Shown: positions 16,841 through 24,583 of the stretch, piece by piece | Layout of the letters: each line of letters begins with the position of its first letter | Numbering within the stretch: position 1 is the first letter of the stretch | Assembly (NCBI GenBank): GCA_020852075.1 | Contig: JADZBN010000212.1 | Span: 1-38,725, forward strand | Reading direction: 5' to 3' | DNA length: 38,725 nt | DNA from: Bacteroidia bacterium | GTDB lineage: Bacteria > Bacteroidota > Bacteroidia > AKYH767-A > 2013-40CM-41-45 | Notes under the pieces: model-generated | The model's input: only the letters and a program-made list of their open reading frames with translations | What the model was told of the DNA's origin: nothing | Database searches by the model: none | Position numbers and translations under genes: made by a program

Positions 16841-19330
16841 ATGAAAAAGAGTTCCCTGTGGCTGCTGCTTTGCCTGTGTGTTTACCAAATCCAGGCACAA
16901 CCTGTTGCTTACAATACATCAGACATCCTCCTCTCTCTTGAAAAACTGAATACACTGGGTTCGGTTCTTTATATAGCCGCGCACCCGGACGACGAAAACA
17001 CAAGACTTCTCGGATATTATGCGAATGAAAAGCACCTGCAAACCACCTATCTTGCCATAACCCGTGGTGACGGAGGGCAAAACCTGATTGGAAACGAGCA
17101 GGGTGATTTACTTGGGGTAATACGTACCGAAGAGTTGCTTGCAGCAAGGCGGATAGACAGGGCGGGTCAGTTTTTCACCCGTGCTATTGATTTTGGATAT
17201 ACCAAAAGCCCTGAAGAAACATTTTCCATCTGGAACAAAGACAGTATTCTCAGTGATGTGGTTTGGGCTGTCCGGAAATTCCGCCCGGATATAATTATAC
17301 TCCGTTTCCCGACAACCGGTGAAGGCGGGCACGGACATCACACAGCTTCTGCGATTCTCGGACTGGAGGCCTTTGACAGGGCCGCGGATAAGAGTGCGTT
17401 CCCCGAACAATTCCAATGGGTGGAACCCTGGCAGGCTACGAGGATTTTCTGGAATGTATTCCGGCCCAAGCCGGAAGATATCAGTAATCCACAGGAAGTA
17501 TGTGCGGTAGATGTTGGCAGTTACAATCCGCTGTTGGGGAAATCGTATGGAGAGCTTGCCTCAGAAAGCAGGAGTATGCATAAAAGTCAGGGATTCGGTA
17601 CTGCCCGGAGCAGGGGGAGTCAGAACGACTACCTGAAATTTTTAAAGGGTCAGGCATTCTCAGGCAATGAATTAAGCGGGATCAATACTTCGTGGACAAG
17701 GGTCCGGAACGGAGAAATCGTCGGTAAATTGATTGAGGGAATCATCCATGAATTTAAACCTGAAGATCCGGCGGCATCCGTAAAAGGCCTGCTTGAGGTA
17801 CGAAGTGCCATTGAAGAAAACATCACCGATGAATACTGGAAGTCGAGAAAGTTGCTGGAAACGGATCAGTTGATAGCCGCCTGTTCCGGTTTATTTGCAG
17901 AGGCGGTTGCCGGCCAGTATTCTGTTGTTCCCGGTGATAGTATTTCGGTGTCGGTGAGCAGCATCATCCGATCAGATTTTCCACTCACAGTGAAATCCAT
18001 CATGATACCCGGAAAGGAAACCCTTACTACGGATACGGTTTTACCCTTCAACCGGCTGGTATCTTTTGATGTAAAAGTCAAGGTGCCTCCTGATGCCAGG
18101 TACACAAATCCTTACTGGTTAGATCTTCCTGCATCCAAGGGTACATTTACCGTAAAAAGCCGTTTGTTGGAAGGCACTCCCGAAAGTCCACCGGCCATAT
18201 CGGCAAAAATAACCCTGCTTGCCGGAAACCAAAGCATTACCATCGAACGTCCGGTGCTGTATAAATGGGTGGATCCTGTAAAAGGGGAACAGTACAGGCA
18301 ACTGGAAATACTTCCTCCGGTATCGGTTAATCCCGTTGAGGATGTCAGCATTTTTGTCAGGAGCAGGGAAAGAAAGATCAGTGCCGTGGTACATGCCAAT
18401 AAAGACGACCAGAAAGGGGAGGTCTTTCTCAGGGCACCGCAGGGATGGACTGTAAAACCCGCCTCCATACCTTTCGGCTTCACAAAAAAAGATGAGGAAA
18501 AACAGTTTACTTTCAGTGTTGTTCCTTCCCGTGGATACAATGACGGTCGTTTTCTGTTCTCTTCCATAATTTCTGGACGCGAATACGGTAAGAAGACGGT
18601 GATGATCGAACACGATCATATCCCTATCCAGACGCTGGTGCGCAATGCAGATACCCGGTGCGTTTCCATCAACCTGCAGACCGTACCGCTGAAGATCGGG
18701 TATATTACAGGCGCAGGAGATAAAATCCCCGAGTGCCTGGAACAGGCAGGATACAAGGTAACCACTCTGGGGGATGACACACTGACGGGTGGCAACTTAT
18801 CGGTATATGATGTAATCATCACCGGTATTCGTGCATATAACACCAATGACCGGATTGCTGTATATCAGCAGCGGCTTATGGATTTTGTAAAAGCAGGAGG
18901 CACCCTGCTTACCCAGTATAATACCAGCAATTTTCTCAGTAGTGTGAAAACCCGGCTTGGCCCCTATCCCTTTGATATTACCCGCGACCGGGTGACGGAT
19001 GAAAACGCGGAAGTCCGGTTTATTCATCCCTCGGATCCACTGCTGAAATCTCCTAATGCAATTACCGGAAAAGATTTTGATGGCTGGATTCAGGAGCGCG
19101 GGTTGTATTTTGCCGGAAATGCCGACTCAGCTTATACATCTGTATTTTCCATGAATGATACGGGAGATAAGCCACTTGACGGTTCACTGATTTATGCACG
19201 ATATGGAAAAGGTATATTCATTTATACGGGGCTTTCCTTCTTCAGAGAATTGCCTGCCGGAGTACCCGGCGCCTACAGGTTGTTTGTGAATTTAATGGCT
19301 GCCGGCTATCCGGTTCATGACAAGGAATAA
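16841..19330 (+). CDS. Secreted PIG-L/LmbE-type deacetylase
   Basis: 829 aa with a signal peptide (MKKSSLWLLLCLCVYQIQAQ), so periplasmic or exported. Residues about 38-250 form a PIG-L (LmbE) metal-dependent N-deacetylase: LYIAAHPDDENTR with the AHPDDE motif at 47-52, TRGDGGQN, RTEELLAAR, and GGHGHH with HGHH at 164-167. The long remainder has beta-rich modules and, near residues 625-800, a Rossmann-like segment (KIGYITGAGDKIPECLEQ ... VYDVIITGIRAYNT ... VKAGGTLLTQYN) resembling a glutamine-amidotransferase-like fold. The family removes N-acetyl groups from amino sugars. The stop codon is directly followed by the ATG of a 41-aa membrane protein and then a symporter, which suggests coupled processing and import. 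Confidence 0.9.
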   Translation: MKKSSLWLLLCLCVYQIQAQPVAYNTSDILLSLEKLNTLGSVLYIAAHPDDENTRLLGYYANEKHLQTTYLAITRGDGGQNLIGNEQGDLLGVIRTEELLAARRIDRAGQFFTRAIDFGYTKSPEETFSIWNKDSILSDVVWAVRKFRPDIIILRFPTTGEGGHGHHTASAILGLEAFDRAADKSAFPEQFQWVEPWQATRIFWNVFRPKPEDISNPQEVCAVDVGSYNPLLGKSYGELASESRSMHKSQGFGTARSRGSQNDYLKFLKGQAFSGNELSGINTSWTRVRNGEIVGKLIEGIIHEFKPEDPAASVKGLLEVRSAIEENITDEYWKSRKLLETDQLIAACSGLFAEAVAGQYSVVPGDSISVSVSSIIRSDFPLTVKSIMIPGKETLTTDTVLPFNRLVSFDVKVKVPPDARYTNPYWLDLPASKGTFTVKSRLLEGTPESPPAISAKITLLAGNQSITIERPVLYKWVDPVKGEQYRQLEILPPVSVNPVEDVSIFVRSRERKISAVVHANKDDQKGEVFLRAPQGWTVKPASIPFGFTKKDEEKQFTFSVVPSRGYNDGRFLFSSIISGREYGKKTVMIEHDHIPIQTLVRNADTRCVSINLQTVPLKIGYITGAGDKIPECLEQAGYKVTTLGDDTLTGGNLSVYDVIITGIRAYNTNDRIAVYQQRLMDFVKAGGTLLTQYNTSNFLSSVKTRLGPYPFDITRDRVTDENAEVRFIHPSDPLLKSPNAITGKDFDGWIQERGLYFAGNADSAYTSVFSMNDTGDKPLDGSLIYARYGKGIFIYTGLSFFRELPAGVPGAYRLFVNLMAAGYPVHDKE

Positions 19331-19456
19331 ATGATTCAGCCGAACGAAGACAAGCCTCCGTTTTTTTCAACATGGAAGCGGATGTACCTGTTTTTACTGG
19401 CTTATCTGGCCGGATTGATTTTCTTATTCACTCTGTTTAAAGATTATTTTTCATGA
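19331..19456 (+). CDS. Small single-span membrane protein (41 aa) in the deacetylase-symporter operon
   Basis: The ATG directly follows the TAA of the deacetylase gene, and the TGA overlaps the ATG of the symporter in an ATGA, both signs of translational coupling. The product starts with a polar segment (MIQPNEDKPPFFSTWKR), then one hydrophobic span (about 19-36, YLFLLAYLAGLIFLFTLF) and a short KDYFS tail. The W..MY...L...L.G.I..F..F pattern is one I recall from short ORFs placed before sodium:solute symporters in Bacteroidota, but I cannot verify a family name. It is probably a symporter accessory subunit or assembly factor; that function is inferred from position only. Confidence 0.75.
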   Translation: MIQPNEDKPPFFSTWKRMYLFLLAYLAGLIFLFTLFKDYFS

Positions 19457-21177
19457 GTCCTGCTGACTGGATTGTTCTTTGCGGGACCCTGGCATTTATT
19501 GCCTTGTACGGCATGTGGAAAAGCCGGGGGAATAAAACCATTGACAGTTATCTGCTGGCGGATAAAACCATGCCCTGGTATATGGTAGGAATATCCATCA
19601 TGGCTACACAGGCCAGTGCGATTACCTTTCTGTCAGCACCCGGGCAGGCCTATGTGGACGGAATGCGTTTTGTTCAGTTTTACTTCGGGCTTCCACTTGC
19701 CATGATTGTTCTTTGCATCACATTTGTCCCGATTTTTCACCGGCTGAATGTTTTTACCGCCTACGAATTTCTTGAATCCCGTTTCGACCTGAAAACCCGT
19801 GCCCTGACGGCATTTCTTTTTCTGATACAAAGAGGTCTTGCGTGTGGCCTGACCATATATGCTCCTTCCATTATTCTGTCATCCATTTTGGGATGGAATA
19901 TATACTGGACGATTCTTGCCACGGGAGGGATAGTGGTAGTTTATACCGTATCGGGCGGGTCCCGTGCGGTGAATATCACCCAGCTTCACCAGATGGCTGT
20001 CATATTCATAGGCATGTGTCTTGCCGGAATCATGGTGGTTAAACTCCTGCCCGACAACATGTCTTTTTGGGATTCGCTCAGGGTTGCCGGTTCGCTGGGG
20101 AAATTAAATGTAGTGGATTTCAAATTTGATCCGCAAAATCAATACAACATCTGGTCGGGGCTGATCGGAGGTTTCTTCCTGGCACTTTCGTATTTCGGTA
20201 CCGATCAGTCACAGGTCGGGCGTTACCTTTCCGGTAAAAGTATCGGCCAGAGCAGGCTGGGGTTGTTGTTCAATGGATTTATTAAAATCCCCATGCAGTT
20301 TCTGATACTGATGATCGGAGCGCTGGTCTTTGTGTTTTACCAGTTTAACCGGCCACCGATGCATTTCAACAATGTTGAAGAACAAAAAATTCTGAGAAGT
20401 CCTTCGGGAGGTCAGTACACAGAACTGAACAATACCTACAATAAAATATTTAATGAGAAACAGGAATATTTATCGCAGTTGACTCAATCCATAAAAACCG
20501 GAGATGAGAAGGGTTTGCGGAGGAATGCTGAAATCGTTGACAGCAAGGAGAAAGGGATGAAGGAAATCCGTGCGAAAGCCCAGTCGCTGATGAAAGCCAA
20601 TGATCCCATGTCTGAAACCAATGATACCAATTATATTTTCCTGTCATTTGTTACCCATTATCTTCCAGCCGGTTTGATTGGCTTACTGATTGCAGTAATC
20701 TTCAGTGCATCCATGTCATCTACTTCCTCCGAGTTGAGCGCATTGGCAGGTACCACGGTAGTGGATATTTATAAACGCCTGTTTGGCCGAGACAGGGGAG
20801 CGCTGCATTACGTTCATGCTTCGAGGTGGACAACGGTTTTCTGGGGTGCTTATGCCATCGGAGTCGCCATGTTTGCAAATCAGCTCGGAAGCCTCATCGA
20901 AGCGGTGAATAAACTTGGGTCCTTGTTTTACGGAACCATTCTTGGGGTATTTGTCATCGCCTTTTACATCAGGATGATCAGGGGTACCGCAGTATTTTAT
21001 GCCGCACTTCTTGCGGAGGCGGTGGTATTTGCCGTCTATTTTGCCGGTGACATTGCTTTTCTCTGGCTCAATATGGTCGGATGTATTATGGTAATTGCAT
21101 TTGCTTTTCTGATACAACCATTCCTACAAAATAAAAACGGGGACACGCCACCGGTATCCCCGTTACAAAATGACTAA
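19453..21177 (+). CDS. Sodium:solute symporter (SLC5/SSS family)
   Basis: 574 aa, inner-membrane Na+-coupled transporter with about 13 hydrophobic spans. Family features: SYLLADKTMPWYMVGISIMATQASAITFLSAPG at the N-terminus, YTVSGGSRAVNITQLHQM and SYFGTDQSQVGRYLSGKS in the core, and IFSASMSSTSSELSALAGTTVVDIY near residues 417-441. A charged insert (about 300-390, rich in Glu, Lys and Gln) separates two membrane spans and is probably cytoplasmic or periplasmic coiled-coil-like; I have seen this in Bacteroidota SSS proteins. The substrate is likely the sugar or amino sugar released by the upstream deacetylase, an inference from the operon. The end of the gene contains the terminator of the opposing gene. 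Confidence 0.92.
   Translation: MSPADWIVLCGTLAFIALYGMWKSRGNKTIDSYLLADKTMPWYMVGISIMATQASAITFLSAPGQAYVDGMRFVQFYFGLPLAMIVLCITFVPIFHRLNVFTAYEFLESRFDLKTRALTAFLFLIQRGLACGLTIYAPSIILSSILGWNIYWTILATGGIVVVYTVSGGSRAVNITQLHQMAVIFIGMCLAGIMVVKLLPDNMSFWDSLRVAGSLGKLNVVDFKFDPQNQYNIWSGLIGGFFLALSYFGTDQSQVGRYLSGKSIGQSRLGLLFNGFIKIPMQFLILMIGALVFVFYQFNRPPMHFNNVEEQKILRSPSGGQYTELNNTYNKIFNEKQEYLSQLTQSIKTGDEKGLRRNAEIVDSKEKGMKEIRAKAQSLMKANDPMSETNDTNYIFLSFVTHYLPAGLIGLLIAVIFSASMSSTSSELSALAGTTVVDIYKRLFGRDRGALHYVHASRWTTVFWGAYAIGVAMFANQLGSLIEAVNKLGSLFYGTILGVFVIAFYIRMIRGTAVFYAALLAEAVVFAVYFAGDIAFLWLNMVGCIMVIAFAFLIQPFLQNKNGDTPPVSPLQND
21131..21164 (-). terminator. Minus-strand intrinsic terminator inside the symporter 3' end
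   Basis: Read on the minus strand, AACGGGGA and TCCCCGTT form an 8-bp stem (plus-strand 21136-21143 and 21157-21164) followed by TTTTTAT. It lies 23 bp beyond the stop of the DUF2911 gene and overlaps the last codons of the symporter gene. Confidence 0.7.
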
Positions 21178-21186
21178 CAGGTAAGA

Positions 21187-22029
21187 TTATTTTTTTGCTC
21201 CTGAAAGGTCGGCAATAGCCTTTTCCACCTGATCTTTAAAGAAGAAGCCTTCTGATTTATCACCCAGCATTTTGGCGGTTTGTGCATACTTTAATGCATC
21301 CGCTTTTTTGCCGAGTTCAGACAACACCTGAGATTTTGTCCAGTTGTTGAACCAGTCGCTGGTAAGGTTGATGGATTTGTCCACATATTCCAGGGCTTTG
21401 TCGTAGTTTTTCTTTTCCATCATGTAACGTGCGGCCGAATTATAGGCTCTCCAGCTTCCGCCGAGTACATTATTAATATTTTCTTCAGCAAATTTTTCTG
21501 TCGGTGTCTTAACAACGAAGGAGACCCGGGTTTTGTCCCATTCGAGGTTAATGGTTCCCTGATTATCGGTAAAATCCGAAAACAGAAACGCCATCCTTTC
21601 ACGGAAGGGGGAAGCCTGGGGTTTTACCTTGATGCGCATCAAATCCTCAGCCTCCTTGTAATCTCCGGTAGATGCGGTTTTGTTTTTATTCAGGATAACA
21701 AGCCATCCGGCTTCTCCCGGGATGGTAAAAACCGAGTAGGTACCTTCGGGGACGTTGGTACCTTCAATTTCCACAGGGTTACTGAAGGTGATGGTTGTGG
21801 CAGAGTTAGCACCGGTTCTCCAAATCTTATCATAGGGAACCAGTCCTCCGAAAATGGTGCGACCCTTTACTCCCGGTGAGCTGTAATCAATGGTGATATC
21901 GGTTAGTCCGATGGTCTGGCTGACGGTTGCATGAGGACTGGGTTGGGGCAAACGCAATTGGGCGGTGGCGGAATGAGATCCGAACCATACAAATAGCAAC
22001 AGAAATGCGAAGGTGGAGAGATGTTTCAT
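21187..22029 (-). CDS. Secreted DUF2911-family protein
   Basis: 280 aa from the ATG at 22029, chosen because it begins the signal peptide (MKHLSTFAFLLLFVWFGSHSATAQ); the frame extends 12 codons further without support. Residues about 25-175 match DUF2911: PSPHATVSQTIGLTDITIDYSSPGVKGR, FGGLVPYDKIWRTGAN and EGTYSVFTIPG. The C-terminal ~90 residues are helical and TPR-like (MMEKKNYDKALEYVDKSINL, then KADALKYAQTAK). There is no sorting domain, so it is probably periplasmic. No biochemical role is known for the family. Confidence 0.88.
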   Translation of the reverse strand: MKHLSTFAFLLLFVWFGSHSATAQLRLPQPSPHATVSQTIGLTDITIDYSSPGVKGRTIFGGLVPYDKIWRTGANSATTITFSNPVEIEGTNVPEGTYSVFTIPGEAGWLVILNKNKTASTGDYKEAEDLMRIKVKPQASPFRERMAFLFSDFTDNQGTINLEWDKTRVSFVVKTPTEKFAEENINNVLGGSWRAYNSAARYMMEKKNYDKALEYVDKSINLTSDWFNNWTKSQVLSELGKKADALKYAQTAKMLGDKSEGFFFKDQVEKAIADLSGAKK

Positions 22030-22273
22030 GTGTATGTTAGTTAAGTATCCCGCGAAATTACTCAAATAAAATAATAAAACTGCAGATATATCGAGTCAGA
22101 ACAAGGGGGGAAACGGGATTTTTTCAGATTTCAGAAATATGAAATTCAGGAAATTCATAACAGGAATCTGCTGGCAGGAAATGCAACAAATTCTTACTTT
22201 TAGCGTTATATTTAACCTTGTAAAACATCATTTGAACCTGAAAATCAACAGGTAATTATTACCCCTCATCTTT

Positions 22274-24583
22274 ATGAATCTGATTCAAATTCGGTTGATT
22301 CAATGTATTGTACTGATAAACCTGTGTGCGGGTATTCCGTGCTATGCGTTTGCCACCGACGGGTTGGAGTCGCAGTATTCGGTGTATGCATCCGAGCCAA
22401 CATTTCCGGCGAGTTTTCTCACTGTCGATCCCTCGGTTTGCAATCAGGCAGAACTGAACTGGATATCGGGTGATGGTGCGAGGAGGCTGGTGATTGCAAG
22501 AGCCAACGGCCCCGTGAGCCAGATGCCTGTGGATGGAACTACCTACAATGCTGCTACCAATTTCGGTGGAGGGAGCAACCTGGGTGACGGGAACTATGTT
22601 GTGTACAACAGCAACGGCACCAATGTCGTTGTAACGGGGCTGAACGGTGGCGTACATTATTATTTTGCCGTATTTGAGTTTAACGGAACCGGCTTCGGAA
22701 TCAATTACCTTACCTCTGTTTATCCCTCGGTAGATACCATTGCTACGGGAATCGTACTGAGCGTGGTTGCTGCTGATACCGCATTATGTGTTGGGGAATC
22801 CACGACCATTGAAGCCAATGGAGCAAACAGTTATTTCTGGAATCCCTCCACGGGTTTATCTTCCACCACAGATTCAGTTGTAACAGCAACACCCGCGTCC
22901 ACCACTACCTATACGGTCTATGGTTCAGACACCATGGGCTGTCAGGTTTCACAGAAAATCACCATTACGGTTTCTTCACTTCCGTCGGTCAGTCTTTCCC
23001 AGTTTCCTGACCATTGCCGGAACGATGCACCCTTTGCACTTTCGGGAGGGTTACCTTCGGGCGGTGTGTACAATGGCCCGGGAGTTACAGGAGGTATATT
23101 TGATCCTGCCGCGGCCGGCAGTGGTATTCTCACTTTATATTATACCTATACCAATTCCCAGGGCTGTTCGAATACAGCAAGCAATACCATTCGGATATTT
23201 TCACCACCTTCGGTTACCCTGGGAAGTTTCAGTGACCAGTGCAGTAATGGTTCTCCGCTGACATTGACAGGAGGCAGCCCTTCCGGTGGTATATACAGCG
23301 GCACCGGTGTCAGTGGCAACCAGTTTGATCCGTCGGCAGCGGGATCCGGTACACATGATATCATTTATACTTTTACCAATATCAACGGCTGTTCATCTTC
23401 AGATACCAGCAGTATTACCGTTCATTCGCCGCCGAATGTTTCGCTATCCTCATTCTCCGGCGTATGTGTTGATGCACCCGCATTTTCACTCAGCGGAGGC
23501 AGTCCTCCGGGAGGAACCTATTCAGGGATCGGAGTTTCGGGGGGCAGTTTCACCGCTTCGGTTGCGGGTACCGGCTCCACCACCATTACCTATTCTTATA
23601 CAGACGGTGACGGCTGCACTTCTTCTGATTCCCGGACGATTCAGGTTTATGGCCTGCCCACAGTAACCGTAGCTCCTTTTGACCCGGTATGTGAAGGATC
23701 GGCTCCGGTAGCATTGAGTGGAGGGTCGCCGCCGGGAGGAACCTATTCCGGTCCGGGGGTAACCAATAATGAATTCAATGCCCAGGTTACGGATACAGGA
23801 ATCTTTATCCTGACGTATACTTATGTGGATGGAAACAGTTGTGTGAACTCCGATTCTTCCGCAATCACAGTGAATGCATTACCCGTTGTCACACTTTCCC
23901 CATTTCAGGATGTATGTGTGAATACGGGGCCGGTAGCATTAATCGGAGGCAATCCTTCGCCGGGTATTTACTCCGGTACAGGCGTAGGCGGATCAACATT
24001 TTACACCGGTATAGCCGGCGCTGGCATACACACCATTCAATATTCTTATACGGATTCGAATGGTTGCAGCAACAGTACATCCGGTACAATTACGGTTCAT
24101 GATATTCCGGCAGTCTCTCTGGGTCCTGATACCCTTACCTGTTCAGATGTACCCATAGTACTGACACCAGGCGCAGGGTATTCATCGTATTTCTGGAATA
24201 CTGGTTCCAACGCATCTTTCATCACCGTAGATACGACCGGCCACGGGATCGGAACGTTTCCCTTCTGGGTTTTGGTGACCAACGCATTCGGGTGTGTAAA
24301 CCGGGATACCATTGCGGTAACGTTTGATCCATGCTCCGGGATTTCCGGTCCGGACGCTGCCCTCATGCAGGTGTATCCAAATCCCTTTTCGGGAACATGC
24401 ACCGTAGTACTCCATAAGGTTTCAGATGTCAGGGTGTACACCATGGAAGGCAGGCTGGCAGAGGAGAAATGCCAGGTAACCGGTGTGTTATCTATTGGAA
24501 ATTCCCTGCCTTTCGGGCATTACCTGCTTGATATTTTACAGGGCGGAAAGCAATATACATTCCGGCTTTTGAAATCCCGGTAG
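22274..24583 (+). CDS. T9SS-exported repeat protein (five 75-aa Ig-like repeats)
   Basis: 769 aa. A signal peptide (about 1-26) is followed by a fibronectin/Ig-like region (to about 235) with a PKD-like module (TALCVGESTTIEANG). Then come five tandem repeats beginning at residues 236, 311, 386, 461 and 536, each 75 aa, with the pattern V.L..F..VC......LSGG.P.GG.YSG.GV....F......G...I.Y.YTD..GC..S. They are followed by a shorter module (from 611) and a type A T9SS sorting domain (LMQVYPNPFSGTC ... GHYLLDILQ). It is a surface adhesin-like or structural protein; each repeat has paired cysteines that could form disulfides. No enzymatic domain is seen. Confidence 0.88.
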   Translation: MNLIQIRLIQCIVLINLCAGIPCYAFATDGLESQYSVYASEPTFPASFLTVDPSVCNQAELNWISGDGARRLVIARANGPVSQMPVDGTTYNAATNFGGGSNLGDGNYVVYNSNGTNVVVTGLNGGVHYYFAVFEFNGTGFGINYLTSVYPSVDTIATGIVLSVVAADTALCVGESTTIEANGANSYFWNPSTGLSSTTDSVVTATPASTTTYTVYGSDTMGCQVSQKITITVSSLPSVSLSQFPDHCRNDAPFALSGGLPSGGVYNGPGVTGGIFDPAAAGSGILTLYYTYTNSQGCSNTASNTIRIFSPPSVTLGSFSDQCSNGSPLTLTGGSPSGGIYSGTGVSGNQFDPSAAGSGTHDIIYTFTNINGCSSSDTSSITVHSPPNVSLSSFSGVCVDAPAFSLSGGSPPGGTYSGIGVSGGSFTASVAGTGSTTITYSYTDGDGCTSSDSRTIQVYGLPTVTVAPFDPVCEGSAPVALSGGSPPGGTYSGPGVTNNEFNAQVTDTGIFILTYTYVDGNSCVNSDSSAITVNALPVVTLSPFQDVCVNTGPVALIGGNPSPGIYSGTGVGGSTFYTGIAGAGIHTIQYSYTDSNGCSNSTSGTITVHDIPAVSLGPDTLTCSDVPIVLTPGAGYSSYFWNTGSNASFITVDTTGHGIGTFPFWVLVTNAFGCVNRDTIAVTFDPCSGISGPDAALMQVYPNPFSGTCTVVLHKVSDVRVYTMEGRLAEEKCQVTGVLSIGNSLPFGHYLLDILQGGKQYTFRLLKSR
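22979..24103 (+). repeat. Five in-frame tandem repeats of 225 bp
   Basis: Units start at 22979, 23204, 23429, 23654 and 23879 and end at 24103. Every unit is exactly 225 bp (75 codons). Identity is clear in the motifs (GG.P.GG.YSG.GV) but diverged at the DNA level. Confidence 0.9.

Follow-up and report, generated by a model that had tools for sequence, protein, structure and literature searches.

A conserved one-helix membrane protein gene directly before an SSS symporter gene in a Bacteroidia bacterium: a probable symporter subunit

Sodium:solute symporters of the SSS (SLC5) family are studied as single polypeptides. In the VC_2705-type sodium/substrate symporters a small subunit (TIGR03647/DUF4212) is encoded by a gene preceding that of the SSS large subunit, and the small proteins of the DUF485 and DUF3311 families span the membrane twice. 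The words subunit, accessory, MAP17 and YjcH are all absent from a 2021 review of the prokaryotic SSS members. A protein of the DUF485 family has 72 aa (PMC6692424), and a DUF3311 gene and its symporter gene drop together in a regulator mutant (PMC9100948). The SLC5 transporter SGLT2 (SLC5A2) has an essential auxiliary subunit, the single-helix protein MAP17 (PDZK1IP1), which packs on TM13, the C-terminal helix of human SGLT2 (PMC10803289). In Pseudomonas putida a short ORF, CbrX, lies upstream of the SLC5-containing kinase gene cbrA, and the identity of its peptide is not needed (PMC6591292). Small proteins beside SSS symporters are thus already known; what appears to be new at the locus described here is a one-span, phylum-wide family that falls outside the models listed above. 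The window (the whole stretch of DNA analysed, 38,725 nucleotides of a Bacteroidia bacterium contig) carries a member of this family between the genes of a deacetylase and an SSS symporter, and the features of the operon are shown in Table 1.

Table 1 Positions of the operon features in the window
Feature	Coordinates	Strand	Details
Secreted PIG-L/LmbE-type deacetylase, 829 aa	16841..19330	+	PF02585 at residues 43-177, 2.1e-13
Probable PIG-L signal peptide	16841..16897	+	MKKSSLWLLLCLCVYQIQA; predicted from sequence
TAA-ATG junction, PIG-L stop abutting small-ORF start	19328..19333	+	read from sequence; PIG-L TAA at 19328-19330, small-ORF ATG directly after at 19331
41-aa single-span membrane protein ORF	19331..19456	+	41 codons; MIQPNEDKPPFFSTWKRMYLFLLAYLAGLIFLFTLFKDYFS
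ATGA overlap, small-ORF stop/symporter start	19453..19456	+	small-ORF TGA at 19454-19456, symporter ATG from 19453; same overlap in 63/85 relatives
SSS/SLC5 sodium:solute symporter, 574 aa	19453..21177	+	SSF 5.5e-36; helices read as 13 spans
Symporter helical hairpin, residues 307-383, spans 8/9, probably periplasmic	20371..20601	+	AF2 pLDDT about 95

The deacetylase was assigned by its match to PF02585 (51.3 bits, cut-off 28.2) together with the AHPDD and second His motifs, the residues of which (AHPDDEN and HGHH) vary little or not at all in 36 relatives. Its best fold match in the PDB, from an AF2 model with a pLDDT of 90.3, is N,N'-diacetylchitobiose deacetylase, covering roughly the catalytic domain only. 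The symporter was assigned by profile (PF00474, 124.8 bits against a cut-off of 22.8; TIGR00813, 218.4 against 184) and by fold, its AF2 model (pLDDT 88.6) matching the PDB structures of SGLT2-MAP17, SMCT1, NIS and, most closely, the sialic-acid symporter SiaT (Foldseek TM-score 0.88 by target length), and the chain stops a few residues past the last span. No plasmid records matching the symporter were found. A tie between the hairpin of the symporter and PIG-L was considered and rejected, a region of similar length being present in all relatives measured, in symporters without PIG-L (82 residues) as well as in those with it. A DUF2911 gene (21187-22065, minus strand) lies convergent to and just downstream of the symporter gene; it recurs beside the operon in 53 of the 213 fetched loci as well as in the window, and at one locus (L144) it stands directly upstream of the PIG-L gene on the same strand. 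Beyond the DUF2911 gene, and only just past it, the minus strand has a terminator-like stem of 11 pairs (21136-21164), which falls within the 3' end of the symporter gene. The plus strand encodes at 22274-24583 a secreted protein of 769 aa that contains several repeats, similar to one another and ~70 residues long, and has a weak type IX secretion tail.

The small protein has a single hydrophobic stretch, with a Kyte-Doolittle maximum of 2.56 over 17 residues, and no Pfam or NCBIfam model matched it even at E values up to 10, so that it was not placed in DUF485, DUF3311 or DUF4212/TIGR03647. None of these families was among those listed for its 76 relatives (the first 25 of 51 Pfam families), which gave scattered weak matches, and a MAP17-type Pfam family was likewise missing from the matches listed for the window protein and its relatives. 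In the alignment of the 76 family members Y19 is invariant, W15 is kept in at least 90 %, and elsewhere it is chiefly hydrophobicity that is retained. The 12 residues ahead of the span core contain on average 2.3 lysines and arginines, compared with 0.5 following the core, and no family member carries more of them after the span than before; since these residues are concentrated before the span, the positive-inside rule suggests an N-in/C-out orientation.

Conservation of the ORF was assessed by gathering symporter orthologs, with 6 of 11 genomes of the family and 100 of 198 genomes of the class positive, and reading the DNA upstream of each symporter. To estimate chance occurrence, the 200 nt that precede the symporter were shuffled in a dinucleotide-preserving way at the 104 ortholog loci with enough upstream sequence. 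An ORF of 31-57 aa with one span precedes the symporter at 85 of the 104 loci (82 %) and in 4.9 % of shuffles, a figure that is slightly circular because the ORFs were picked by hydrophobicity; two further loci (L036 and L067) hold such an ORF by eye that falls below the thresholds, and these are additional to the 85. The ORF stops exactly at the symporter start, as in the window, at 63 loci (0.5 % of shuffles), and a one-span ORF with a W-x(2-4)-[YW] motif is present at 78 (0.6 % of shuffles). The sole named locus that came from the symporter scan of genome contigs, that of a Chitinophagaceae MAG (L038), also has the small ORF. When 11 close pairs were pooled, the pN/pS was 0.25 (bootstrap 0.21-0.29), and differences at the three codon positions numbered 80, 44 and 155. 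This result and that for the exact overlap are independent of the hydrophobicity-based choice of ORFs. With the frame kept at most loci and changes mainly synonymous, the pattern is that of a protein-coding gene under purifying selection, and on this evidence the 41-codon ORF is a true gene under protein-level selection and not a chance ORF. The preliminary description of this locus had read the ORF as a single-span protein with a TAA abutting its ATG and an ATGA overlap at its end, a layout that the sequence bears out, and its supposition that the ORF is conserved at this position was upheld by the excess over shuffles. Codon-level conservation, which it had proposed as a check, took the form of purifying selection; a lost frame or internal stop codons, which it had named as contrary evidence, were seen in none of the close relatives. 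The motif that it had offered for searches, W..MY..L.AYL.GLI, proved too narrow, as W15 and Y19 are its only conserved positions.

The overlap of stop and start codons suggests translational coupling of the small ORF and the symporter, and the ORF might then be a coupling leader only, its peptide being inert and its role being to deliver terminating ribosomes to the overlapping ATG of the symporter for re-initiation. The ATGA overlap in 63 of 85 loci is consistent with such a leader, and CbrX provides a precedent, in that CbrA was still synthesised when the peptide was replaced by a frameshifted one of equal length (PMC6591292). A mere leader is nonetheless unlikely here, given the constraint at the amino-acid level with its near-invariant W and Y, and given the 22 of 85 loci with other stop/start arrangements. 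It is also at odds with genomes in which the two genes have been separated. In four species of one genus (G225, G234, G246 and G287 of g165) an insert of ~15 kb lies between the small ORF and the symporter; all four retain an intact small ORF, and pairwise pN/pS values are 0.07-0.30 in a post-insert test that rests on few substitutions (8 synonymous and 2 nonsynonymous differences in the pair L205-L204, for instance). In a further genome (G456) an intact copy of the small gene lies 108 kb from the symporter. Re-initiation is not possible over ~15 kb or 108 kb. Selection therefore appears to act on the peptide as such, and the small ORF appears to be more than a coupling leader; where the genes do overlap, coupling may operate in addition to the function of the peptide. 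The window protein resembles CbrX as a short membrane-type ORF overlapping the start of an SLC5-domain gene, but CbrX has 58 aa, two predicted helices, a 17-nt overlap and a histidine kinase as partner, whereas the window protein has one span and belongs to a family whose sequence is under selection even when uncoupled. Judged by selection, a function independent of peptide sequence, as in CbrX, would not apply to it.

The partner of the small protein was sought with a 76-sequence profile, built from the small protein alone and run on 297 genomes of the phylum. Matches were obtained in 104 genomes, almost always one per genome, and 97 of the 109 matches are followed within 120 nt, on the same strand, by an SSS gene of the same symporter type, which ties the small membrane protein genetically to that gene. 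The remaining 12 comprise five intact copies, those described above, that are on the strand and contig of the symporter at a greater distance, one (in G226) with a broken symporter frame downstream, and six weak matches with no adjoining symporter. The small gene and SSS occur together in 101 of the 297 genomes, which are related and hence not independent counts, and 22 of these 101 have no PIG-L ortholog. Only three genomes have a match without SSS, namely G226 and the weakly matching G281 and G435, and an intact small gene with PIG-L and without SSS was found in none of the 297. In G226 (L144/L199) PIG-L and the small ORF are present and the symporter is apparently frame-broken, its first residues only being readable in frame. 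The operon occurs twice in another genome (G475, two places on contig C1; L165 and L166) with matching small proteins; of the copies there, one PIG-L gene is fragmented and one symporter gene has an in-frame TAG.

Alternatively, the small protein could act on behalf of the deacetylase, anchoring PIG-L to the membrane or offering it a docking site, for instance; its place next to the symporter would then follow from the operon only. At 64 loci PIG-L is at most 220 nt upstream, and the small ORF is present at 60 of these; an analysis of correlated distances did not separate the two partners, the correlation with PIG-L (partial r 0.28) being as good as that with SSS (0.21). Such a role is very unlikely in view of the 22 genomes that hold the small gene and SSS with no PIG-L ortholog, the lack of any intact pair of small gene and PIG-L without SSS, and the loci at class level where PIG-L is not adjacent, at 25 of 38 of which the small ORF stays with the symporter (where the flank was limited to 1.5 kb, "not adjacent" means absent from that flank). 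As far as gene linkage can tell, the small gene goes with the symporter rather than the deacetylase, because 22 genomes have the first two without the third. The preliminary description had cast the small protein as a dedicated accessory subunit of a deacetylate-then-import system; the linkage favours the subunit role for the symporter, and since its occurrence follows that of the symporter, the small protein is not specific to the deacetylate-then-import pair.

Some lineages keep the symporter and have no small ORF. Of 14 SSS genomes without a profile match, 10 carry a diverged small ORF at the same place and four lack it (L181-L184); it is likewise missing at L090, L042, L045, L050, L082, L092, L094, L095, L098, L104 and L106, so the small ORF is not universally required. 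The other SSS genes of the window genome (L002-L005) have no such small ORF in front. An additional C-terminal symporter helix in place of the missing small ORF was considered and rejected, as it was seen in no such lineage; no further C-terminal hydrophobic segment was present in the symporter relatives, with or without the small ORF. Absence from some symporter-keeping lineages would fit a dispensable modulator, that is, a switch or adaptor acting conditionally on the symporter in place of a constitutive structural subunit, and AcrZ on AcrB is a known small transmembrane protein that tunes a transporter (PMC7267776). That the small protein is a conditional regulator of this kind is nevertheless quite unlikely, as the tight linkage and the overlapping stop and start codons suggest a fixed stoichiometry and not independent control.

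The small protein is therefore best regarded as a probable one-helix inner-membrane accessory subunit of the SSS symporter encoded directly after it. By analogy with MAP17-SGLT2, its helix would lie in the membrane packed against the 13 spans of the symporter and would support the folding, stability or turnover of the symporter, and the ATGA overlap would keep the synthesis of the two proteins in step. In the operon of the window they would probably import the product freed in the periplasm by PIG-L, plausibly a de-N-acetylated amino sugar or a related compound. The fold matches of the two partner proteins, diacetylchitobiose deacetylase and SiaT, point to N-acetylated sugars, and on these sequence and model comparisons a deacetylate-then-import role for acetylated amino sugars is plausible. 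A search of the literature on PIG-L together with a symporter found nothing relevant. The insert of genus g165, read in G225 (L208, G225:C17:6000-25900), has its genes divergent to the symporter; they encode a PIG-L protein (288 aa), a Glucosamine_iso-family protein (glucosamine-isomerase/6-phosphogluconolactonase), ROK and MFS proteins, SusC, SusD, an ECF sigma factor, FecR, a PcRGLX-like protein and a Na_sulph_symp transporter, in what is apparently an amino-sugar or glycan utilisation locus. The spacing of small ORF and symporter in G234, G246 and G287 is the same as that at L208. A link to bacillithiol via BshC was dropped, as BshC is present in 186 of 198 class genomes and, on shared contigs where coordinates were compared, is separated from the symporter by tens of kb or more.

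Where heterologous expression of such transporters has failed, the reason could be a conserved partner that profile libraries overlook, and the 76-sequence profile provides a searchable family for re-annotation. The family could also provide a tractable system in bacteria for studying how one-helix subunits of the MAP17 kind support SLC5 transporters. Among the described systems, the locus shares with the DUF485 (YjcH)/ActP-type and DUF3311/MctP-type pairs a small-protein gene adjoining a bacterial SSS gene (PMC6692424, PMC9100948), and with TIGR03647/DUF4212 a small gene in front of an SSS gene; the window symporter scores 41.7 bits against the corresponding large-subunit model TIGR03648, far below the cut-off of 320.75. 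The locus resembles MAP17-SGLT2 in that a protein with a single transmembrane helix goes with an SLC5/SSS symporter, and the symporter fold matches that of SGLT2-MAP17. MAP17 is an animal protein, and this likeness is a functional analogy only, with no homology claimed. Unlike SGLT2, the window symporter has 13 spans and no C-terminal helix of the TM13 type, and it is conceivable, if somewhat doubtful, that an N-in/C-out helix from a gene of its own complements a transporter which has 13 spans and is devoid of the last SGLT helix. Tentatively, this unnamed phylum-wide one-helix family could represent dedicated subunits of bacterial SSS symporters, and thus a bacterial counterpart of the MAP17-SGLT2 arrangement.
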